The notes beneath the pieces were generated by a model. It saw only the letters and a list, made by a program, of their open reading frames with translations. It was not told the DNA's origin and did no database searches. Position numbers and translations under genes: made by a program. 64,000 bases of DNA. Origin: Tetrahymena thermophila SB210. Taxonomy: Eukaryota > Ciliophora > Oligohymenophorea > Hymenostomatida > Tetrahymenidae. Each line of letters starts with the position of its first letter. Position 1 is the stretch's first letter. The stretch covers positions 124,001 to 188,000 of the forward strand of contig NW_002476348.1 in NCBI RefSeq assembly GCF_000189635.1, given 5' to 3'. Below, in pieces: positions 10,257 through 62,803 of the stretch.

Positions 10257-13200
10257 TCAATTAGGATTATTTTATTGTCTCCTTCTTCTTCTAGTTGAAG
10301 GCTAATCAACACTTTACTCGTTTCTAATATATTTAATAATTTACAATTGTAATGTTTTTAATTATTTGAAAATAAATTAGTTAATTATTTATTACATATT
10401 AGTTAAATTTGATAGAGGAATACGTAGATTCTACTGTACTTTATTATCATCTTTTTATTTTACTTGCATTAATCTATCTAGGAATTTTTATTTCGCTATT
10501 TATTTTGTTGCTGGATTTTCTCTCTCATAGTCCTTTTTAATCAGTAATTAATTAATTAATTTAATTATTAATGTATTTCTAATAATTTTATGAAATTTAC
10601 AGTGTTAAATTTATCTTCAATTTAAAAATAAGATTATTCATTAGGAGGTGCATCTGCAACTTTAAATAGTTTTTAATTTATTTTTTGCATAGGTAAAACT
10701 GCATTTATTAAGCCAATTCCACAAGCAATAAACTGATAAATGCTATCAATTCCAAGATTATTATTACCAATTACAAAGATAGAAAAGAATATATTACCAG
10801 CCTAATTAATTTATTAATAAAAAATATTTTTAAATTAGATGAAATTTAATAGATTATTACACAAAATATTATAATTGCAAGTTCTAAAAGCTCAGTCATT
10901 TCTATAGTAATTTCATTACTAATATTATACTTCACTATTCTTCTATACACTAGCTCGTACTTTATTAATTTTAAGTAAAATAAACAGTCTTTTGATATTT
11001 TTAAATTATTTTACTTTATCTAAAATATAGTTGAGTAAAAGAGTTAATGCTACCCACGGCAAGCAAGCAGGTATGATTGGAGCATAGAAAGCCATTAAAA
11101 ATATTGTTTTTAGCTGTCTGCTATACTTAAGAATGATATCAAACTCAGGATCTTCAAATATTCTAAAAAATAATTAAAATAAAATTCTATATTAAAAATT
11201 TGAATGAATGAATTAATTAATTACTAATTGAGTTATTATTGAGTCGAATAATTAGTTTGATTCTAACAAGAATTCTTTGCAAAATATCTTTTAATTGCTT
11301 TAAAAATTCCAGGAATGTTCAGAAACTGTAAGAAAGAGCCCATGATTGTGCTTGTGATAAACACATATTAAATATTATATACTAAACCACCTTTATCAAA
11401 TATCTTTTAGAAATAGCTTCCACCATCTAAGTAAAACATCTAGTTTCCAAAAATAATCAATGCAGATACTGTAAATTAAGTCAAGGATATCTTTTAAATA
11501 GCACTTATGTAATATTCAGATCTTGTTTTTTATTTTTCCAAACTATTAAAGTATATTAAATAATAAATTTATTTAACTCTTTAATTTTGTTGTTTATTTA
11601 AAAAATATTCAATAAAAAACATTAAATTTAATAAAATTTAATTGATTTTTTATAAATATTCAATAAAAAACAGTAAATTTAAAAAAATTAATTGATTTTT
11701 CTAATAATTACTCTATATTATTGAATAATTAATTTAAAGAAAAGAGTTAAATTAAATTAAATTAAATTTAGAATTTAAGAATTTTAGTTAAATTTATTTC
11801 AATAATTTTTTAATTAAAATCAAAAAGTTATTTTTTATAAATTTATTTTTTTAGAATAATCAATCATAAGATAGTAAGTAGCTAATAGCTGAATAGATAA
11901 CCATAAGATAGTAGCTGATAGTAGAATAGATTCCATATAAATAATAAGTAAGGTTTTATTTAAATAATTATTATCTCTAAATCTATTTCTAAGGATTAAC
12001 AATAAGAAAATAGCTAACTGTTGAATGAATTTTTAATTTATTTGCAAATCATTTTAATGGCTTTAAAGATATAAATGAATGAAAATAATTACTTGGTAAA
12101 TAAAATGCAGAGTTCTTTTAAGATCAAATTCATAACATTGATAATTACAGATATTACTATTCCAACTATTTGAAGAGTGACCTCAGTATCATAGACATAA
12201 ACTGTTTTGTTGTTTTTAATAGTTTATTATTGTTTTAAAATTTAATTCACTACAAAGAAGCATCCAGTTAGTAAACCTACAAGAATTATATACATAAAAA
12301 TCTATCTCAAATTTTGGCTGTGAATGTGAAGATTTTCCCAAAATACATCAGATGGGGCTGGTGGTTTTTGAATTTATAACTACTTTCCACCGTAATTCAA
12401 TTTTTTAGAAAATCGCAAAATCCTATGAAAGGGTTTATAAAAATCTATTATTTAGTCTTTTTCTGTTATAAAATATATTTTTATAAAATTTAATTAAAAA
12501 ATTTAAATTATAAATTAATTACCTTTAGCAGATTCAAGAGAAACGAATGCCCAGCCTGTAAATTTACTAGAGAATATTTCTGCATCATTTGAATCATAAA
12601 ACTTTTTAGATAGGGAAGTTAGTTCGGATTCCATTACTTCTAACTCTTTATCAAGTTTATAAGCACTCTACCCAGTTTAATATTCACCATGAACGTATCT
12701 ATATTTTACTGCTGCTTTTTTTTATTATATGATAGCATCCTTTTTTTTTTATATTGCCTTGAATTCAACCAAATTGTAAGAAAAGTTTATCTTTGATACT
12801 GAAGTATATGCATTTTCTATCAAATTTTGTTACAAAAATATTTTTAAATCTTCAAGGTAATTCCCACTTGTAGGATTTTAAATTACGGGAATTTCTTTCA
12901 CTAGCATAGTATAGTCTTCTGCAGAAATATCAATTATATCAGTGACAGTATCAATTTTTCTGATGTAGTATCTGAAGTACTAAAAACATAACACAACAAC
13001 ACAGACAGTAGCCATATTCAGTATATCTTAAATTTACAATAAAGTAGTTTCATTTTTCTTATTTCCAACAGTCAAAATAGTTATCCAATTGCTTTGACAA
13101 GTGTATTTATAATCAACTGCTTATTTAGCTTAGTAACTATTCGAGCATTAGTCCCCATAATATATATTTGTAAATAAATTAAAGAAACCAGATGTTAAGA

Positions 13201-13948
13201 ATAGCATTAAAGTGAGAAATATTGAGAATTTTGTAAAGCCAAAATAAAGAGGAAATCCTGCTCCTAAATAAGATAGCTAGGAATTATCACTGCTTAAACT
13301 TAATTTTGATCTATAAATAGTTTTTGTACAACAAGGACACAACCCTTCCTTTTCATCTTAAGAGCTCATTTATAATAAATCAATAGGACCAACTTTGCTT
13401 GCTTTCTATTTTAGTTTAAAAGTTTTTAAAAATTGAACATTTCTAAATTTATTTAATTTGTTTTAATTTATTTATTTTTTAAGTTATTTTGCCTTTAATT
13501 ATTAGTAATCAATCACTTTTTTTGATGAAAAACTTATGATTAAATAAAACATACTTACTTATTTACTTACCTTATCATAAAATGAATGTTAAAATATATG
13601 AATTAATTACTTAGTGCTTCAGCGCAATATCTAAATTCGGTGGTATTTAATCTTTATCAAATTCATTTTATCCAGGCAAATTTACTTATGAAGATCGAGG
13701 AGGCAATAGCATAGATTTTATTTTTTCTGCAACTACTTTTTACTACTCTTCTATATCATCTTTTTTTGCTATCTAATTATAATTAGCTGATGTTAAATCA
13801 TCACTTGACTTATTGCTATCGTTTTGTGCAATTAATTTATTATGCTCGCTCGTTAATGGCACTATAAAATTATTTTCATAATAAATTGAAAATTAATTAT
13901 ATTAAAATAAAAGAATGATTGATTACCAACTCTATTCTTTTTAATCAT
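10257..13948 (-). CDS. OSCA/TMEM63 (CSC1-like) mechanosensitive/osmosensitive channel
   Basis: Nine exons read downward: 13948-13927, 13861-13611, 13492-12523, 12462-12093, 11542-11225, 11162-11015, 10959-10861, 10801-10601, 10532-10257; 884 aa. Family hallmarks in order: an early membrane segment (GFPLYFGFTKFSIF), an RNA-recognition-like cytosolic segment opening with EDYTMLVKEIP and closing with FTGWAFVSLE, the KPPAPSDVFWENLH motif before the next helix, a Gln/Lys/Thr turn (LEKQKTRSEYYISA) before the pore helices, and the AFYAPIIPACLPW...LNYILDK block. Known members are cation channels opened by membrane tension or osmotic stress. The N-terminal ~160 residues are hydrophilic and the start sits in a 22-nt first exon. 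One intron is 550 nt. The last ~50 residues are uncertain, because a splice from about 10430 to 10325 would give a different, longer end. Confidence 0.85.
11543..12092 (-). other. 550-nt intron of the OSCA-like gene with internal repeats
   Basis: Unusually long for this window. It separates the KELCILFT and LEKQKTRSEYY coding segments with consistent phase. It contains two near-identical copies of AAATATTCAATAAAAAACA about 65 bp apart, an ATTAA repeat run, and a run of AAGATAGTA/GCTAATAG-like repeats near 11870-11930. No alternative exon with family similarity was seen. Confidence 0.7.
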
Positions 13949-15326: not shown

Positions 15327-18300
15327 TCAATTTTTAAAAAAATCTTCTGATTAAATCAAATTTTTATCAGATTTAAATTCACTAAACAATGCTGCATCTA
15401 ATATTGATTCTGGCATAATGCAAGTTACAACTTTAAGCTTAGAAACGGTTTTGTATGTATAAAGATCGCTTGGCCCCAAAATGACAAAGATTTCTCCTTT
15501 TTTGGCTTACTTATTTGGTAGAGTCTTTCTTATTTATCCTCCACCAGCTTCAATTAGAGAAGTTAATTCTTCTTCGTTTGGTTCAGTTATACTTTTAGAA
15601 ATGTAAAATGTGTAACCTTCAAATATTTAATTATCGTGGGAAATCTATTTTCTTTTTTATATAAAGAATTCTAAATCATTGTTGAATCTCTCCTTAAAAT
15701 ATTATGATTCTTCTGGCTAGTAATTCGAGTAATTAGACAACAATTTATTCTGTCTAATACTATCTGTTAGCCATTTTTCATGAACAATTGGTTTCTTTTT
15801 CATGACTGCCAACAATAACTTTATTGTTCTTTTTGTTTCTTTTACTACTAATATATCAAAATCCTGATTATCTTCTATAAGCGTAGATTTTAATTGCTTG
15901 ATGCCTTTCTTTTATTCTGGTTTTAGCTTAAATCCACTTACTGATATCTTCATACTTTCTTTTATAGCATTTCCATCTATATCCTCAGCTACCATAGATT
16001 TATCTTGACTTTATCTTGTTAATCTACCCTTGCTTTAAGAATTTTATTCCTTACTAACGCTATCCTCAGATTTAGTCGAGTTTCTTGAGTTTTCATCTTA
16101 CATTTTACCTGTTTTTTATTTGAGTAATTGAACCCAGCTTGACTAGACTTTTTATTTCTTCTTAGGATCTTCACCAAGGTCTTCTGATTGATCACCGTTA
16201 CTATTATTTTTTTCTTCTTTTAGGTCATTCTATTTATTTTTTGATTATTAAGCTCCTCTTTTATTTCCAGATGAGAAAGCTTAATCATCACTGCTATTTA
16301 CATCACTACTTTAAAATAATGTCTTTTAAGGAACAGTGCTGCTTGCTTTATTGAATGCCTTTTCCTCAAATTCCTCTACCACAGATGGCTAAGTTGAAGA
16401 AGCAATAGGAGATATAGATTTTTTCATGTCAGACATTGTAAGAGTACGTAAAGGAAATTTTTTATTCATAAGACCTATGTTTCTTTGCTAAGCTCCTTAA
16501 AATTATCCTGAAACTCCTTAGTTGCTATTTTCTACTCCTGATTGACTGTCTTCTCTTTTTAAGTTATTTCCGAATCCTGTTCTGCTGTTTTCTCTTGAAG
16601 AAAGCTGATGATTGGAATTAATTTTATTTTTGTTATTTTCTTCCTGTTCTTCTTCTTCATCGTTGCCAAATAAATCATCAAATTAATTCACTTTATCTAA
16701 ATTAATATTTTTCGCCTTTTTTTAAGGATCATCTTACTTCTTTGAGTTATTATCGCTTAAAGTGGGAAGTACATTTATTACATAGTTTTATTCATTATTT
16801 AAAGAATTTAAATTTTATCTTAAATCGTTTGTTTCATTTTATGTCTTTTTTTTATCAGTTTAATTTTGTTAGGCCTTACCTTAGCTTTAAAGTTATTCTC
16901 TTAATTTCTTGAGTTCTTCTTCTTGCTGCTTTATCTTGTTAATTAATTCTTAGTTTTGTGTATCTTCTCTTTTTCCATTCTAACTCTCAGGGGAATCTAT
17001 TAAAGTATTCTAAAGAGCAGCAGGTTTTTCGCTGGGAAGAGGAGAATTTATCTTGCTATTTGAGTCAGTTTGGTCTATAAGAGTGGCACCAAGCTCTTAA
17101 TTAGAAGTTGACCTTGATTAAGCTGATTGCTGAGATAGTTTCCTTTGCTTTTCATTTTGAACAGACAAAAGATTCAAATTTACTTCTTCATCTAGAAATG
17201 TAGGACTTAAAGATATTGGGCTTTTATGTTTTTTATTAACTTTATTTTAACTACTTATTGATTAGTTAGCAGATTTTACACTAACTTAATCATCATCTAC
17301 TAACGTAGGGCTAAGAGGAGATGTCTTTTTATTATACCTAAAAGACTGTGATTAATTTTGACTTTAAGGCGAGTCTAAGAGAGTTGCTACTAGATTCAAG
17401 TTAGTATTTCTCTATTATTGTGTTTTACTTCTTTCTTAAGTACTACTCTCGAACCATCCATCATCATGAAAGGAATCTTCATCTATTAATGTCTCCTAAA
17501 GCAATTCTTTCTGTATATTTTTAGATGAAGGTTATGGGCTCAAAGCTTTTTTAATTTCATTTTCTCTTCTTTTAATAACCTCTTTTTTTTGTTGCTTTTC
17601 CTCTTCAGATAAATCAGGAGTTTTATCGTTTTCAGGTATCATTTTTTTATCATCTTAAACTGATTTCTTATTGCTTTAGCTTTGGTTTTCAGCTATCATT
17701 TTTTTATTTTCCTGATTATTTTAACTTGACTCGCTAGGTTAACTAGCTTAATTTTAATATTTTTTATATAAATAATTGTTCTTTAATATCTCCATCCTTC
17801 TTTATTTTTCTGAAAGACCTTGAGAAGCTTAAATTGGCAAAGAGCTTTGAGTAGTCTAAATAGGTAACGAAGCATTAAAAGAAGCTTGATTAGGCTCTGT
17901 TTAATTAACAGATTTTTAAAATAATTTTGAATCTTCTTAATCATCTTTGTCTGAGAGTTCAAGGGTCTTTTCACATTCCATTTTATTATTATTTCTTCTA
18001 TTTTGTTAGTTTTTGAATAAGCTATTCTCATTATCACTCTACTCTTTATCACTTAACTCAAGAGTTTTTTCAAACATTTATTGATTATTTTTCTTTTTTT
18101 AGCTTTGTATGTTTTTATTTTAAAATAAATTGTCATTATCTTCTTCTCCACTTTTGTCACTTAACTCTAATGTTTTATCATATTAATTGGCATCATTTTG
18201 CTTTTTTTATTAGCTTTTGTTTTTAAAAATATTTTATTCTTCGTCATCACTTTTATCACTAAGCTAAAGTGTTTTCTCACATTCCATTTATTTATTAGTA

Positions 18301-19382
18301 TTTTTTTTACTGCTCTAAAAAAGATTCTAGTTATCTTCATCACTGTTTTTATCACTCAACTCTAGCGTTTTATCATAATTGTTAGCATCTGACTAAGCAT
18401 TTTTATTTTTAGTTTATTTACTCCTAAATAAATTATTTTCCTCCTCTCTATCACCTTCATTGCTGGATAGTTCTAAAGTCTTGTCATACTCACTGCCTTT
18501 TTAATTACTTTGATTATTTTGATTAAAGATATTTCCCTCTTCTTGATCATCCGCATCACTCTTGATCTCCAAAGTTTTCTCATAATCTCCTGCAGATTAT
18601 TTATTTGAATTTTAAAACAGCTGCTATTCTTCTTATTAGTTCTCTTAATCACTCAATTCAAGTGTTTTTTCATATAAATTAGATATATCTTTCTTTTTTT
18701 TAAAAAAATAAATATCAATTTAATTATTCTATTTTAAATAATCAATCAAGGATTTTCTTTCTTGCTTACTTGCTCATTCATATTATATTTTTTCTGGTCT
18801 ACTTGATCTTAATCTGCAAAAATATTATTATTTTCAACATCATCTAAGTCTGTTTCATCCAATTCGATTGTCATATTATACTCTATTTTCAATTTGATTA
18901 AATATAATTCAGTTAAAAAATAAGTAATTAATTCATTCATTACTCTTTTAGCTTTAAGATTAGCTTATTTCATCTCTTTCCCTTTATCTCCTTTCTTCGC
19001 CCTTTTTATAATCCTCATCAAAGGCGACTACATAACATTTATATTTTCCAATATAAAACTCATGGTCAGGAATGATGCTGAATCTTTGATTTTGTTCAAG
19101 GCGAACTTTTTTATTAGGGTTAAATGATGCCTTTTTAAAGATACCTTGCTTACTGTTTAGATCTTAAATATATGCATCTCCATCATTAGTGATATAAATT
19201 TCTGCATGAAGAGGAGAAACACCTTCTGCTTCTATAACGACTTCTGATTTAGTTGAATCTGAGCCTATATTATTTTATCCCTCATAGAGGTAGTATTTAG
19301 ATGGGACTAATTTCTTTAATGGGTTTTGAAAAACAGCCAAAATAGCCCATTTAACTCTATTTTATATATTTGCGATATTCAT
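15327..19382 (-). CDS. FHA + Thr-acidic repeat + tandem BRCT scaffold, MDC1-like
   Basis: Three exons read downward: 19382-18944, 18882-18770, 18692-15327; 1305 aa. An FHA domain (about aa 15-125) shows IGSD, VSPLHAEI (SxxH) and DLNSKQGIF (Asn-Ser). Next, aa ~150-430 hold nine copies of a ~30-aa unit of the form KTLELSD + acidic run + NLF. A long Ser/Asn/Gln-rich linker carries about six further T-L/F-x-D motifs (TLIDED, TLLDSP, TLVDDD, TFLDEE, TLIDQT, TLIDSP). The C-terminus is a BRCT pair: BRCT1 opens with ISVSGFKL, has RTIKLLLA and the conserved Trp in VHEKWLTDSI (~aa 1156); BRCT2 spans about aa 1205-1290. The Ser-Gly and Thr-x-Lys residues that bind phosphoserine in BRCA1/MDC1-type pairs are present. 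The architecture matches the DNA-damage mediator MDC1; that role is inferred. Repeat sequence itself is unlike anything I recognise. Confidence 0.88.
17890..18890 (-). repeat. Nine-copy KTLELSD coding repeat
   Basis: In-frame protein repeat within the FHA-BRCT gene. Copies read as EKTLELSDQ, EKTLEIKSD, DKTLELSSN, DKTLELSDK, EKTLQLSDK, DKTLELSDK, EKTLELSDK, EKTLELSDK, preceded by a divergent TIELDETD copy in the small second exon. Each is followed by Asp/Glu-rich sequence and usually by LF or IF about 12-20 residues later. Thr-x-x-Leu and Ser-Asp-x-Asp/Glu patterns look like phosphorylation sites for acid-directed kinases such as CK2. Confidence 0.85.
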
Positions 19383-46091: not shown

Positions 46092-49000
46092 TTGTTTACA
46101 TTATTGCCATTTTTTTAATTTATATTTGCTTGCTATTAATTAAAAATAATAAAGTATTCGATTAAGTTAAATTCTAAATGCTTATTTTTCTATTTATTTA
46201 AATGATAATTTTGAGAAACTTAAAACTTACTTTTCTATTATTTTTTTAATTAATATAAAACTTAAAATTAAGAGTTATTTGATTAATTAAATTAAATCAG
46301 TGATCTCAAATAAAACTAAAATATCCTATTTAAAAAATGAATTTAATATTTAGAATATATGATATATGTTTTCAAATAAAAATATTATGGGATTTACTGA
46401 TCAAAATTATTCCTATTAATCTTATTTATATTTTAAATGCTTATTTTTCAATTTATTTAAATAATAATTTGTAAAATTCAAATTTTACCTTTAAGCTTGT
46501 CTATTATTTTTATTGAAGAAAAATTGTTGTTTGGATTCAGAATATTGAAGCTGTTATCATACAAACTTAAAACTAGGTACTTTTGATCTGGTGAAAAAGT
46601 TAAATGGATTATTTCTTAGTTTAGTTTTAAGGATTTTGTTAGCTCAAACTGTTTTGAGATATTCCATATTTTACAAAAGTTATCTATTGAGCAAGTAGCT
46701 AAATACGTACCATTTGGAGAAAAAGAGAGAGAATTAATTTTATCATCGTGTGCTTTAATTTTATGGAGTAAGCTATAAGATTTAGATGGATCCCATACTC
46801 TTAAATAAGAATCATCTGAACATGTTGCTAGATATTTACCATCAGAGGAGAATTAGATTTATCCAATTTTATTTGTGTGAGCAGAAATAAAATATTTAAC
46901 TTAAAAATCATTTTAAATATCTAAGATTTAACAAACAAATAGCTATGAGCTAATGCTAAGATATTTAGAATCTCTAGAAAAATGGAAAGAGTTTATATTT
47001 TCATTGCGGTCAAGTTCGAATACTAATTCAAAATCATTTTCAACATTCCAAACTTTTGCATTATTTACCGTTAATATAACAAAGTATTTACTGTCATATG
47101 AAAATATAGAGTATTCAGGCAAAATAAAATTATCAGATTTATAATTGATCCTTTCCAACAAATCTTCATTATTAGATTTCTACCACACTTCAAATTAATT
47201 TTCATTTAAAGCAACATATAAAGTATCTTAATTATTTGAAATAATATTTTCAAAGCTAATGCTATCCAGCTTTTTCTTCAGCTAAAATGATTGAAGCTCA
47301 AATAAAAGCATATAATAATCTTAATATGAGATGATAAATTCTTTGACAAGATGATGGTTTTAACCTTCTAATTATATTTATTTGAATCCTTTAGAAATGT
47401 TTCCATAGAATGTTTATTTGTTTTCTAAATTTACTAAGTAGTTATTATTTTTATATTAAATATTTTTTATTATGTAAGGAAACTTGAAAGATTAGACGGT
47501 TTCTAAGTTAGAAGGATTTACTTCAAATAGAGACTATTAAGAATACAAAAAAAGATTATTTTCTTCAAGCACTATAGCTTTTATGCTTTAGCAACACACT
47601 TTCTTAGATCCAAGTAGAACTTGTTCTTAAATAGAAAAGCTATTAATATATCCAGATTTACTGACTGAAAATATTTTGTCTTAGTATAATATTTATCCAT
47701 TAGATTGATAAACATCATCCATATCAAATTCTTTTTTGCAGGAATTTATCATGGCATTTTTTGTCAATGAGCTCTCAAAACTGCAGAGGTTTTAGTTTTC
47801 AAGATATGAATAATTAAAATTGCATTAATCGAAATTCATCCTAAAACTCTTTCGAGTTGGTAGGTAAGATTTTGAAAAAGAGCACTTTGCTATGCTCAAT
47901 TCTTCAAAAGCAAATTTGCTAATGAATAGAGTAGATAGTAGATTAGAAGCTCCTCTATCTATTTCACTTACATCAGTTATTTTATTAATTGTTGATCTAC
48001 GAAGATATTGAATGAATCTATTAGTTTTAGTGATATCTTTTTCACTGTAATTTTGTATGAAGGATTCGCTTTCTATTTCCTGTTTAATGAGTCTATAAAA
48101 TTTAACTAAAACTTGCTACTCTGACTTATTTTTCTCTAAATTCATTACAATTTTCTTATTTATGTTAAATTAAATTAATTTTTGCATTTCCAAATTGTAA
48201 ATTTCTTCTCCATGAATATCAAAATCGTATTTAAAAGCCCTAGCAACAAAGTATTCAAATAATGATTTGTGTTTAAACTCAATTATTTATGAGTATTTTC
48301 CCACTTGTTCTTCTTCACTATCATTATCCTTAACTTTAGTAATTATTTTAGAATTCACATAATTTACTATTTTTTGTTACAAGTTGCTTTAGTCTTCTTA
48401 TTTGAGCATATTACAAATATTAGGCTATAAATGAAATACGATTTCCTCTTTAGTGAGCTGCAAAAAGTTAGCTTTGAAACCTTTATTGAGAAACATCTGC
48501 ATGGCTACTGATTGAAAATACACAAAAAATGACTAAACTACTTCAGCTATTAACTACTTGTTTGCTTGGCTTTCTTATATTTGATCAATGAAATCAACAG
48601 CCTCTCTTTAAAACTGCTCTTAGAAAAATATTTCTTGAATTTAAATTTAGTCAGTTATGTTATGAATTATATCTGATAATTCTTCTTACTTTTTATTTAT
48701 CACCATTCTTGTAAATAAGTAGAGATTAATAGGTAAGAATAGTAAGTTTTCTAGCTATTTATTATTCAAGCACATCTCCATCATACTCAAAAACTAATTT
48801 TCATTTATTTGAATTTATTGTTACTTAATGGTCTGCTTTTCAAAGAACTTCTTGCAGTACTAATCAACATCTTTTCTCATAAACTCTTACAACTTAACTA
48901 TACAATAAGATGTTTCATCTCTTACCATTTAGCTATCATCTATACTAAAGTATAATTGTGCATCAGTTTCTGATAACTTTTCCATTCTTGAAGAAACAAT

Positions 49001-51118
49001 TACCACTGTATTTTTCCATTCACTTAAATTCAGCTCATAATAAATTCTAAAATAATTTCCAGAATATTCATCATACCCATCTAGCAAGATAAGCTTGTTG
49101 TTTTTTGTCTACTTTAACAAATTTATCTACTGATTATCAAGTCCTTAACTTAAAAAATAATCATCCAGAGAGGGCTTCGAAGAATCTAAATTATTGCACT
49201 TAATCAAAAACGTAATATAATTGAGTTAACTACCCATTTTTGAGTTTTTTTCTTTCATCAGAAGAGTTTCTAGCCTTTTGAATAACATTGATTTGCCAGT
49301 TCCACCTTCAGCAAGAATACCTAAAATTTTACAGCCCTTACTAATATTTTATTTTTCTTCTATTTAATTCGATTTATTTTAGTGAGGAAGTAAGAATTAA
49401 CTTATAATTAAATCTATTGCATTTTTTTTATATTTCCTTTAAACTCCATCAATATTTAAATCTTTTTGCTCAATTTTTGTGCCTTCAAATATGTTGCTAC
49501 CACTCATATATGCTATATTTTAGTCTATATAGAGATCTTAAACTTCTAAAAGTATATCATCTTTTTAAGCTATGCCCTTTTCTAATCTTTATCTTGCATT
49601 CAATTCCCACTTTTCTATCATCCTGAGAGATATTTTTTCTAGAAAATCTGACTCATCTTTTATTGTTTCTTCAAGCTCATCTATTTCACTTTAGCTTATT
49701 TTATTATTTATCATTTGTTATTTTCTTATATTTTGATATTTCACTACTATACTAGCTAATCTACTAGGATTCTTCTTGACCTCTTCATTCACGGTAGATA
49801 CAAAAGCTTGATTGCCTAAGAAAATTAATTTGATAGACTCATTCTTCTCAGTTAAGTACTAGTGAACAAGGTGAGTAAATAAATATTCATTTTATTGTGA
49901 TCCTTTAGATGCTAAAATTTAGTAGAATAGCATTAGTATTTGATTAGAAAGAAATCTGTATGTGATATCAGTTACTGTAAATTTGAAAAAAAGCAAGAAT
50001 CTCTCTGAAAAAGATTCTTATTGTTTTTCACTTTGCTATTATAAAGTCCTTAAAAATTGATTTAGCTTTTAATTAACTTCAAAGAGGTTGTTCAAGTCTA
50101 TCATAAATTAACTATTGTTAATATTCTTGAGTAAAATACAGTGAATTTATATTAGCAAGTATATTATAATACGACTCGATGCTTAGATATTCTATTACTC
50201 AATAACCTGCTCAATAAAGAAAATAAGCTCATCCGATGCTTAAATTTATTGTTACTTGTAGAATCTTTAGGTTTTTAATTCTAATAATAAAGAAACTTGT
50301 TTTGCAATCGAGTATTTAGTGAAAGATCTTATTTTTTCGTGTGCTTTATCAACAACCTGCCAAACATTATCTAAATGTTCTTATTTATCTGCATCTATTA
50401 GAAAATTTTAATAGCTTTTTCCACTTTCTTAGTTTAATTAATGTTTTTCATTTATAAATAATGGGTGCTGATGTTATCCGCCATTAAGTAAACTTAATTT
50501 ATAAAATTCAGCTATTATTGACACATTCTTGTAGCTTTAAGAGTTTTAATCAAATTCTAAATCGCATAAGTCATATAAAAATTAGTATAAAAACTCTAAA
50601 TCCAAGCATGGAAATAGATTTATATTCTACTTAATATGACTCAAAAAGATATCAATTTTACTAATAATTTAATTTGAATCATCTTTATCGATATCAAATG
50701 CCCCACTAAAAACATATTGAAAACATAAATTAAACATTTCAATTATGAAAATTCTATACTAATTGGTTTAGACGGTAATCTATTCTTTTTTTTTATTCAA
50801 ACATTTATCAAAAATGCTAATAATTTCAGTCGCATAATCCCTTTTATCCACAATTTCGCTTATGTGAAATTTGTTTGCAACATTTTTATCAAAAAATTTT
50901 TAAAATTAGATATCTATCTATAACTTTTTGTCTTCTTATTGATTTATGCTATTTTACTATTGAAAGTCCTTTAAACCTTAAGTTATATCTTGCCTACTAC
51001 AGCATTAGCCTCCACCAATTATTCTCTATTTTGCCATGCTACCAAAAGAATTTTCCTTTTTACTTTCAATATATCTTATCAATTTCTTTTCGTCGTTTTT
51101 ATTAAGCATATTAATCAT
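44338..51118 (-). CDS. NACHT-WD40 STAND protein, 2036 aa
   Basis: Three exons read downward: 51118-46489, 45868-44708, 44657-44338, with matching phases. The N-terminal ~580 aa are helical and Gln-rich with no known domain. The NACHT NTPase follows: Walker A AEGGTGKSMLFKR (~aa 605) and Walker B NKLILLDGYDEY (~aa 680), then the winged-helix-like arm. From ~aa 1260 to the end there are at least fifteen WD40 repeats (SSDGKYLATCSDDSYLRVWD, SPNGTYLATCSIDNFCKIWN and others), enough for two or more propellers. STAND proteins of this type act as ligand-triggered switches in immunity, cell death or self-recognition; the ligand is unknown. The chosen ATG is the first in this frame, but the frame stays open upstream to about 51540, so a 5' exon may be missing. 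Confidence 0.85.
45869..46488 (-). repeat. 620-nt intron with internal duplication
   Basis: Intron of the NACHT-WD40 gene between IIDKLK and ENESEDYGG. Sequence near the 5' splice site (AAATGCTTATTTTTC, then TACTTTT/TACCTTTAAG and CTATTATTTTT) recurs about 260 bp further into the intron at 46170-46260, and an AAATATCC/TCTATTYAAAAAATG block also occurs twice. One copy ends at the real splice site, the other has decayed. The intron also holds a long TTTA run (46056-46093). Confidence 0.65.
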
Positions 51119-52778
51119 TTTCTATCTTCTACACTATGAAAAACTAAAAATTTCAATTTTATTTTTTAAAGAAGATATAAATGATAAATCTTTTGAGACG
51201 TTATTGAACACATTTTTTTATTGTTGTTGTACAGATTGATAATTCTATTATTAAAGATTGTGAAGATTTTTTTTAGAAGGGATTAAATCTTTGACATGTT
51301 ATTACTAAATAAATTTATCAATTAATGCATATAATTTGTCCTAAAATCTAAAATGAGTAATAAATTCCTTAGTTGAATGCTCTTTTTAGTTATATTTCTC
51401 AATATTTAATTTATGCTTCTGACCTTTTTTTAACAAAATTCATAGTATTAGCTATTGAATAGTTTAATATTTGTAAGCTAAAAAAAGATATATATAACAA
51501 ATATTTATAATAATGATTTTTGAAATATAATTGTAAAATATATTCTAACATACTTAACATATGGCTACTCTTTTTTTAAAATATTTCGCTTATGCAGATT
51601 TAATTTTGTTAAAGATCAAGCTAAGAATGTATTATGCTATTAACAAAAGACTTAACTTCAAACTAAATATGTTATGAATGTTAGTTAAAATTCTATTAAT
51701 ATTTTTTTTGTTCTATAGTTTTATTATACAATTAAAAAACGGGATATTTGTTAAAAATTTAAATTAATAAAAACAATTGCATCAAATTGATTACTAAATT
51801 AAAAAATTAATAAAAAAGATATTTATTTGCGTTATTAAAAAAGATTCTATATTTTTACTACACAAAATTATGTTTATTTATTTATTTAATAATATTTTAA
51901 TTGCAATAAATTAACATAAATAACAGGTGATGACAAAAATTGTAGATAAAGTAAAATCAATTAAATAAGCCATCAATCTTTTTAAAATTTATGACAATTA
52001 TATTAATTATCTATCCTTAACACTTAAAGACAGACATATATAAATTAATATAGTTGGATTTTCAAATCCCATACCAATAATTTAATAAGAATTTGTTGAT
52101 TTTTCAATTCATTTTTTATTTTTGCCGAAAGTAAATATGTAATTTTTAAATTTTCATTTTTAACCACTGGTTATTATTAATTTTATTGATGGAAGTTATT
52201 AATTGTAGTTTTTAAATAGTTTATATATTTTCGCTATGAATACCACACTAATGTATGCAAACCCAAGGATAATTAAATTAAAAATTGAATTATTTAATTA
52301 TTTTTATAAAAAATTGTTCATTTAAAATTATTTTTTTATGATATCAAATTATTTGATTAAATAAAACTAGTTCTTATGAATAAAAATAAAATACTATTTC
52401 AGTATTGTTTACATTAACTATACTTAAGGACTTACCTTATTATTAATCGAATAAATAGGTGAAACTACTTTGAGAATTGAACTTTTTCATATAAAACTGG
52501 TAAGCAACAACAAATTAGTTTTTACATAAGTGTTAAGATTTAAAATATTAAAGGTATTTAAAGTATCTCATTTTATGAATTAGTCTTATTTAAATACTAG
52601 TCAAATACTTCCTTTTTAATTAATTTGATTTTTTAAATCTACGATTAAAAAGTGACAAACTTCAAAAAAAAATAAGAGTGATATTAAAAACAGAAAGGAT
52701 AGTTATAAAAATTTATAAATAAGCAAATCAAGCTTACCTTAAAAAACCATTAAATTAATATTTTTTTAACAAATAAAT
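51119..52778. other. Divergent spacer, possible missing 5' exon
   Basis: Lies between the start of the NACHT-WD40 gene and the first ABC gene. The NACHT frame remains open to about 51540 on the minus strand with coding-like sequence (for example KNLHNLQQQNYQSVQQQQ), and another minus frame at 51560-51700 also looks partly coding, so the gene may start further right. From 51800 to 52778 only AT-rich DNA is seen. Confidence 0.5.
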
Positions 52779-57505
<4,727 letters not shown>

Positions 57506-58420
57506 TAAACTAATTAATAAAAAAATAAAAATATTTATTTTTAAATTTTTATTGTATGAAATTGTTAATTAGTATTTTATTGAATTAAATTTAAATTTAT
57601 GTAATTAAGATAAAAACAATGAGGAGTAATTTGTCAGATTTTAATATATCTATAACTTACAAATCTTTCTAAAATTTTATTTTAAACATTTGCTTATTTA
57701 ATGTTTTTAATAAAAGATAATAAATAATTCAAAAAATAAATAGATAAGAATTTTATAATAAATGGGTAAAGAGATAATAGCTCAAAAATATTTAACAATT
57801 TGTAATCAAATTTTAGATTAATTCATACTTTTTCTTTATATTTACTTTCTTTTTGTTTCTATTCACAAATGTAAAAAGCTTTAAGAGATTAGTCCCTTTT
57901 TAATTTACAAATATTTCGTAAAATATTCCTTTTTTTCTAAAGTTTTAGAAGTAAGTAAGATATTTCTAAAGCAAAAGAATGGTAAAAAGAAAGTGTTTGT
58001 TTTCTTATTTTTTATTGTTTAGTAATTTGATGTTATTCAGTTTTAATGCTTGAATTGAGTAAAGAATAATATTTTTTAAAGTTTGAGAAACATGCTTCAA
58101 AGAAAAGGCTTTTAATGCATCACTTAAGACATATAGTCAATATATTAATCAAAGGGTTTGATAATTAATTACTATATTATTCTTAGATGAATAAATCTGA
58201 ATTTTATGGATATTTTTATTATTTAGATTATTTATTATTTTGGATGATCAAAATTTATTTAGTATAATTATTATATTTTTAAGGTTTATAAATTTTAGTT
58301 TCCAGAAATATATTTCTAAACTGTAAACAATAAAAAAGAAAATTAATTACTTTTTTGATAGAAGTTTTAATCTGAAGTTGCGACTAAATTATTACAATTT
58401 TAGGTTGACGCTTTTTAAAA
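57506..58420. other. Spacer between the two ABC genes
   Basis: 915 nt, AT-rich, with a slightly richer patch around 57950-58150 that gives no persuasive frame. It should contain the ABC-2 promoter. Confidence 0.6.

Positions 58421-62803
<4,383 letters not shown>

Follow-up and report, generated by a model that had tools for sequence, protein, structure and literature searches.

A divergent MDC1-type mediator candidate of Tetrahymena joins an altered FHA domain and a BRCT pair through two arrays of threonine motifs

The minus strand of the window analysed here (64,000 nucleotides of the Tetrahymena thermophila SB210 contig NW_002476348.1, positions 124,001 to 188,000) carries at 19382-15327 a gene which, read with the ciliate code (table 6), encodes a 1305-amino-acid protein with an N-terminal FHA domain, a long linker and a C-terminal pair of BRCT domains. 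We propose, with a probability of about 0.6, that its product is a divergent ciliate mediator or scaffold of the MDC1 type equipped with docking arrays of its own. The MDC1-like layout advanced in an initial annotation of this DNA is supported, the BRCT pair being nearest to MDC1, PTIP and Mdb1 among solved structures. The interval it gave is exact, with the start ATG at 19382 and the last base of the TGA stop at 15327. Splicing into three exons was inferred from reading frames and splice signals, and the gene is organised as follows.

18944-19382, minus strand: exon 1 (amino acids 1-146), with the FHA domain (Pfam stretch 19268-19074), homologous to the FHA domains of two paralogs on contigs C122 and C140
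18883-18943, minus strand: intron 1, 61 nucleotides, GT..AG
18770-18882, minus strand: exon 2, carrying the first, degenerate repeat of array A (18880-18818, T151)
18693-18769, minus strand: intron 2, 77 nucleotides, GT..AG
15327-18692, minus strand: exon 3, up to the TGA, with eight repeats, the linker, the second motif array and the BRCT pair
17919-18880, minus strand: array A, nine units, T and F invariant in all nine
16752-17501, minus strand: array B, seven motifs against a shuffle mean of 0.017
15726-15944, minus strand: BRCT1, approximate limits, with S1103-G1104 (Ser codon 15938-15936), R1139 and K1142
15411-15629, minus strand: BRCT2 (PF16589 stretch), directly followed by E1279 (15410-15408), aligned with the Glu of the SPE of MDC1

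Both ends of the protein, previously claimed from the letters alone, were confirmed by Pfam searches, which placed the FHA domain at residues 39-103 (PF00498, E=6.9e-10) and the BRCT pair in the last ~200 residues (PF16589, E=7.6e-16; PF00533, E=9.1e-12; two stretches each). About 980 residues lie between the end of the FHA domain (~residue 121) and the start of BRCT1 (~residue 1100). A single-sequence search of the pair against PDB sequences returned MDC1 at 3.6e-6, over residues 44-216 of the 227-residue query, then PTIP (1.5e-5), fission-yeast Mdb1 (7p0j, 2.4e-5) and BRCA1 (0.003); Crb2, 53BP1 and MCPH1, other readers of gamma-H2AX/H2A, were not among these matches. MDC1, PTIP and Mdb1 all appear among the gamma-H2AX/H2A readers in a review figure (PMC8651625). 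The pocket residues of MDC1 are named as T1898, K1936 and R1933 (PMC8651625), T/S1898 and K1936 binding the phosphate and R1933 the carboxylate (PMC4013092, PMC11014961), with E2063 pairing with R1933 (PMC11014961). Their counterparts in the window protein are S1103, K1142, R1139 and E1279, the last three placed by the PDB-match alignment, while S1103, outside the MDC1 alignment, was placed as the Ser of the Ser-Gly motif by a further alignment and by eye. We take E2063, located by counting along the MDC1 C-terminus, to be the residue matching E1279. BRCT1 does keep the Ser-Gly and Thr-x-Lys residues ascribed to it by the initial annotation (S1103-G1104 and R1139-T1140-x-K1142).

A putative ligand is encoded in the same genome (101 Mb in 445 contigs, searched with TAA/TAG read as Gln). 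Among the nine sequences translated from 12 genome matches to histones, one H2A ends in ASQDL, a second conventional H2A in STEPEH and a variant-like third in TAEPR; a terminal SQ-[ED]-hydrophobic is treated as an H2A.X-like motif in PMC11014961. Gamma-H2A.X of Tetrahymena is reported in the prophase of meiosis, in the pronuclei that arise after it and in developing macronuclei while these eliminate DNA (PMC5482572). Besides these histones, the genome contains an unusual fusion (L048, C364:62140-62427, minus strand, frame at locus 1399-2751) in which a leucine-rich-repeat-like protein, recognised by eye, bears a C-terminal H2A-type histone fold in one frame.

Two more genes share the FHA-linker-BRCT-pair layout.

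C122:1529500-1536500 (L030): paralog with FHA at 1531112-1531330 (4e-7) and BRCT at 1533682-1534185
C140, locus 4881-3412, minus strand (L031): paralog with an FHA-like stretch (E 0.0019, short of the cut-off) and a BRCT pair in the same frame

The FHA domain of the window gene is homologous to those of C122 (9e-15) and C140 (3e-10). The three BRCT pairs are likewise homologous, and a genome search with the pair of the window gene at E<=1 retrieved itself and these two only. In C122 a Lys-rich stretch of 594 residues precedes the pair in one frame. The window gene is the sole member with both Ser-Gly and R-T-x-K, the paralogs having Ser-Asn with R-R-L-K and R-R-A-K. As they still keep the pocket Ser, Arg, Lys and Glu, and as Arabidopsis BCP4 recognises gamma-H2A.X through a pocket altered still further (PMC11014961), they may also be gamma-H2A.X readers. 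Searched back against the genome at E<=10, the human MDC1 segment matched solely C122 and the window gene, and a profile of the three ciliate pairs aligned with this segment over 154 columns (hhalign, 97.2%).

The linker following the FHA domain opens with array A, described in the initial annotation as nine KTLELSD repeats. Nine units are present, spaced by 30-43 residues, with T at 151, 194, 224, 256, 293, 325, 358, 394 and 427 (minus strand, 18880-18818, 18674-18615, 18584-18525, 18488-18426, 18377-18318, 18281-18225, 18182-18123, 18074-18015 and 17975-17919), but the exact KTLELSD occurs in five, three being close (KTLEIKSD, KTLELSSN, KTLQLSD) and one degenerate (MTIELDE), and the second half of the unit had been overlooked. 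The consensus is [YFC]-x-[KM]-T-[LI]-[EQ]-[LI]-acidic-[LI]F, each unit ending with a run of acidic residues and then [LI]F, whose F stands 15-17 residues past the T (9/9). When units are aligned on the T, this residue is found in all nine with all four of its codons in use, preceded by Y, C or F at -3 (9/9) and followed by L or I at +1 and +3 (9/9), E or Q at +2 and Ser at +4 (7/9). Over the eight clearer copies, the proportions of synonymous (pS) and non-synonymous (pN) differences are 1.01 and 0.21 in the KTLELSD core, versus 0.47 and 0.58 in the stretch +18 to +24 and ~0.5 and ~0.5-0.6 in the flanks, the last two being ungapped and thus partly non-homologous comparisons. In 20,000 shuffles of the residues behind each core, an [LI]F was correctly placed in a mean of 0.12 of the nine units and a maximum of 3. 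Together, conservation and shuffles indicate that the Thr and the closing Phe are held most firmly by selection; the spacers between units vary freely. Since patterns and windows were chosen after seeing the sequence, the significance of our shuffles is somewhat overstated, whereas the contrast between pS and pN is unaffected. A degenerate DNA pattern of the KTLELSD type had eight exact matches in the genome, five of them in this gene; the three others are background, given that the reversed-pattern control yielded six. The repeats are thus constrained (core pN 0.21 against pS ~1.0) and, as had been proposed, differ in sequence from the SDTD repeats of MDC1, neither SDTD nor SDT occurring in the 1305 residues.

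Array B, further along the linker (residues 582-831), comprises seven [LV]xxT[LF][ILVS]D motifs at T585, T621, T647, T682, T721, T747 and T828, of which T and D are invariant with synonymous change. The pattern [LIV]..T[LF][ILVS][DE] reached at most 2 occurrences in 50,000 shuffles (mean 0.017), and T[LF][ILVS][DE], seen 7 times against 0.11 expected, attained that count in none of 20,000. The TxxD motifs noticed earlier in the linker are confirmed: residues 452-1099 hold eight T..D where 1.8 are expected, a number reached in 0.0004 of 5,000 shuffles, the eighth (TMSD at 936) being without the rest of the array B motif. T-x-x-D corresponds to a CK2-type site and also, once phosphorylated, to the pTxxD ligand of FHA domains. 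The array motifs were absent from the paralog linkers tested, namely 594 residues of C122 (the part before locus position 2338 being excluded) and 134 residues of C140. The protein includes six TQ, none in a TQxF or TQx-hydrophobic context, and SQ/TQ are not enriched, so that docking of the TQxF type is not suggested. TQxF-type motifs vary by lineage (PMC11014961) and do not, for this reason, define MDC1 across eukaryotes; in the same source, SDTD is also reported absent from invertebrate MDC1 and the PST repeats of MDC1 are described as confined to mammals.

The mechanism that we infer for the MDC1-type mediator, from its ligand and phosphorylation to its partners and place in the cell, would run as follows. 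The BRCT pair would grip the phosphorylated C-terminus of H2A.X (...ASQDL) around double-strand breaks, and the long low-complexity middle would present the two arrays of Thr motifs for phosphorylation, the TLxD array fitting an acidophilic kinase such as CK2. The phosphorylated arrays could then recruit several copies of partners with a competent FHA domain, e.g. FHA-RING ubiquitin ligases, in a manner analogous to MDC1, where TQxF serves for RNF8 and SDTD for NBS1. The RNF8 ligase of animals binds MDC1 at its ATM-phosphorylated TQxF (PMC11014961), and Tetrahymena is reported to be without ATM (PMC8076904). A RING regular expression matched 7 of 22 loci scanned (20 FHA loci and the two paralogs), 2 of the 7 being confirmed by Pfam; a CHFR-like protein (L053, C199, locus 2972-1203, minus strand) combines FHA, RING and zf-CRD (3.7e-31), and L050 is an FHA-RING protein in Pfam. 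Such ligases are candidate readers of the arrays, and better candidates than the FHA domain of the protein itself. Partners of the FHA-kinase type were discarded, a kinase-loop expression matching none of the 22 loci. Two other BRCT genes were recognised by eye: a RING + BRCT gene resembling BRCA1/BARD1 (L032, C209) and a multi-BRCT gene resembling TopBP1/Rtt107 (L034, C60).

The hydrophobic anchors of the T...LF unit imply that part of the docking may not need phosphate. Taken further, the units could be entirely phosphate-independent motifs docking on a basic, hydrophobic groove of the kind offered by RPA70N, with the Thr in a structural role. The hydrophobic residues at +1 and +3, the closing [LI]F of all nine units and the Ser at +4 in seven would suit such motifs. 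We consider this possible but unlikely, as the Thr is unreplaced in nine copies spread over four synonymous codons although other residues suit many structural roles, and as array B shares the hydrophobic residue at -3, the T and the L without the LF.

Several results weigh against the proposed MDC1-type mediator. The back-search with MDC1 puts C122 first (4.1e-6) and the window gene second (5.5e-5), and the H2A.X reader may accordingly be another protein; the profile of the three pairs ranks a BRCA1 chain (1.6e-11) over Mdb1 (1.1e-10) and MDC1 (1.3e-9); the C140 pair is nearest to BARD1 (1.5e-5); and the single-sequence AlphaFold model of the window pair has a mean predicted local distance difference test score of 33. 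SQ/TQ number 24 against 20.1 expected (P 0.18), which led us to abandon an SQ/TQ cluster reading, and at position -3 of array A pS is 0 for a pN of 0.21, so that constraint is not demonstrated there for want of synonymous change. The first two of these results fit a BRCT pair reading another phosphoserine ligand, as with BRCA1, BARD1 or TOPBP1, in a checkpoint, replication or spindle scaffold, gamma-H2A.X being read by C122 or another protein. It would also agree with this that C122, the best match of MDC1, itself finds MDC1 as its best PDB match (1.2e-6), and that Mdb1 has in addition a gamma-H2A-independent mitotic role (PMC4013092). This explanation nonetheless seems rather improbable to us, because the window gene alone of the three keeps Ser-Gly with R-T-x-K and because the single-sequence ranking favours MDC1, PTIP and Mdb1. 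The three-pair ranking assigns the pair to the phosphopeptide class of BRCA1 and MDC1, the affinity to MDC1 being clearest for the window gene and C122.

The initial annotation had also envisaged self-association, with the FHA domain binding TxxD or KTLELSD sites once these are phosphorylated on adjacent copies of the protein. MDC1 does self-associate through its FHA domain and its own N-terminal phosphothreonine, pTxxD is a known FHA preference, and the arrays are numerous and constrained. Canonical phosphothreonine-reading FHA domains (Rad53-type) use the Arg of GR, the Ser of SxxH and the Asn of NG. In the window protein the Ser is kept (SPLH), but the Arg is replaced by Ser and the Asn by Gln, and both paralogs also lack the Arg, with Lys and Thr at that position. 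The genome gave 41 FHA matches, including the window gene and C122; among 27 of the others, examined by eye with 12 left out, 19 keep the Arg and 8 do not. The loss of the Arg is thus not rare in this genome, yet it is common to all three members of the family, which moreover retain an FHA domain in the paralogs though their tested linkers are without such motifs. The domain appears to have largely lost the canonical phosphothreonine contacts, which makes reading of the repeats by it very unlikely, although it may bind them in an unusual mode; the comparison of its fold rested on a weak AlphaFold model. Within the MDC1-type mediator, the FHA domain would more likely serve protein contact or dimerisation, the FHA domain of Drosophila MU2 binding the MRN complex (PMC2672170). 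Lastly, the repeats could be a neutral expansion of low-complexity sequence within a ciliate linker rich in N, Q and K, in keeping with the Q-rich tracts reported in ciliate proteins (PMC10942620) and the free variation of the spacers, but this reading is strongly disfavoured by the contrast between core and flanks and by motif counts far above those of the shuffles.

The window contains other genes. A 1653-residue frame at 46481-51439 (minus strand) encodes an NLR-like NACHT-WD40 protein with a NACHT domain (2.4e-6) and a C-terminal WD40 propeller. The frames at 52656-54224 and 58409-60220 (plus strand), the two scanned there, with those between and after them left out, both match PF00664 and the second also PF00005; they look like neighbouring ABC transporter genes. 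At 11867-13618 (minus strand) lies a PHM7-type cytosolic domain (PF14703, 4.4e-10). In the assembly, contig C4 shows, among the places listed, long C4A2 repeat runs at its start and, inverted, ~465.6 kb further on, and one ciliate telomerase RNA was detected (161.9 bits). With TAA/TAG read as Gln, these features point to a macronuclear assembly of the Tetrahymena type.

The layout (PMC4013092) and the lineage-varying docking motifs (PMC11014961) are already known; the arrays, the altered FHA domain and the three-gene family are new. Among the listed matches of literature searches linking ciliates, Tetrahymena included, to MDC1 or to BRCT domains, with subscription journals mostly outside their scope, no paper was recognised as naming an MDC1 or gamma-H2A.X reader in ciliates. 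ATR drives the meiotic nuclear reorganisation of Tetrahymena, and its targets are described as unknown (PMC8076904). For a ciliate MDC1 or gamma-H2A.X reader, the window gene and both of its paralogs offer concrete candidates. As a tentative extension, the FHA domain of this ciliate family (three members found) might have given up phosphothreonine reading while one member invented two multivalent arrays (T...LF, nine units; TLxD, seven), providing an ATM-independent, lineage-specific route from the gamma-H2A.X mark to a recruitment platform, perhaps with germline and somatic nuclei served by different paralogs. As a mediator, the window protein would also place the combination of FHA and BRCT pair in alveolates and strengthen the case for an ancient layout with docking motifs re-invented in each lineage.

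Among known systems, NBS1/Xrs2 also have an FHA domain and a BRCT pair, but theirs form a contiguous FHA-BRCT1-BRCT2 block (PMC12400192), unlike the distant ends of the window protein. This layout rules out an identity with NBS1, the NIBRIN_BRCT_II model reaching only E 0.05; the same model had no match in the genome, where controls were equally silent, so that the absence of NBS1 cannot be read from it. In Arabidopsis BCP4, a BRCT pair that reads gamma-H2A.X likewise follows a disordered region, which bears TQx-hydrophobic motifs together with others specific to the lineage, but the protein is described without an FHA domain, with Asn/Gln in the pocket and with other motifs (PMC11014961). S. 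pombe Mdb1 resembles the window protein in its BRCT pair, which reads gamma-H2A, and in its N-terminal domain, a suspected FHA of divergent type (PMC4013092). It differs by its length of 624 residues, by the recognisable FHA domain of the window protein and by the arrays, of which the available text on Mdb1 describes no equivalent. MDC1 homologs with FHA and BRCT pair are noted in animals and Amoebozoa, the MDC1-like proteins of Dictyostelium and Polysphondylium (EAL70982, EFA74881) being described with this combination outside opisthokonts (PMC4013092). Human MDC1 and Drosophila MU2 share with the window protein the N-terminal FHA domain, the long middle with repeated motifs and the C-terminal BRCT pair, and human MDC1, which ranks first among the PDB matches of the pair, further shares with it the pocket residues T/S, R, K and E. 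Compared with human MDC1, the window protein has [YFC]xKTLEL...LF and [LV]xxTLxD arrays instead of SDTD and TQxF, no enrichment in SQ/TQ, an FHA domain without the phosphothreonine Arg, and two paralogs. The idea of an independent solution can therefore hold for the repeats, and is limited to them, since FHA and BRCT pair are common to the MDC1 family of animals and Amoebozoa.

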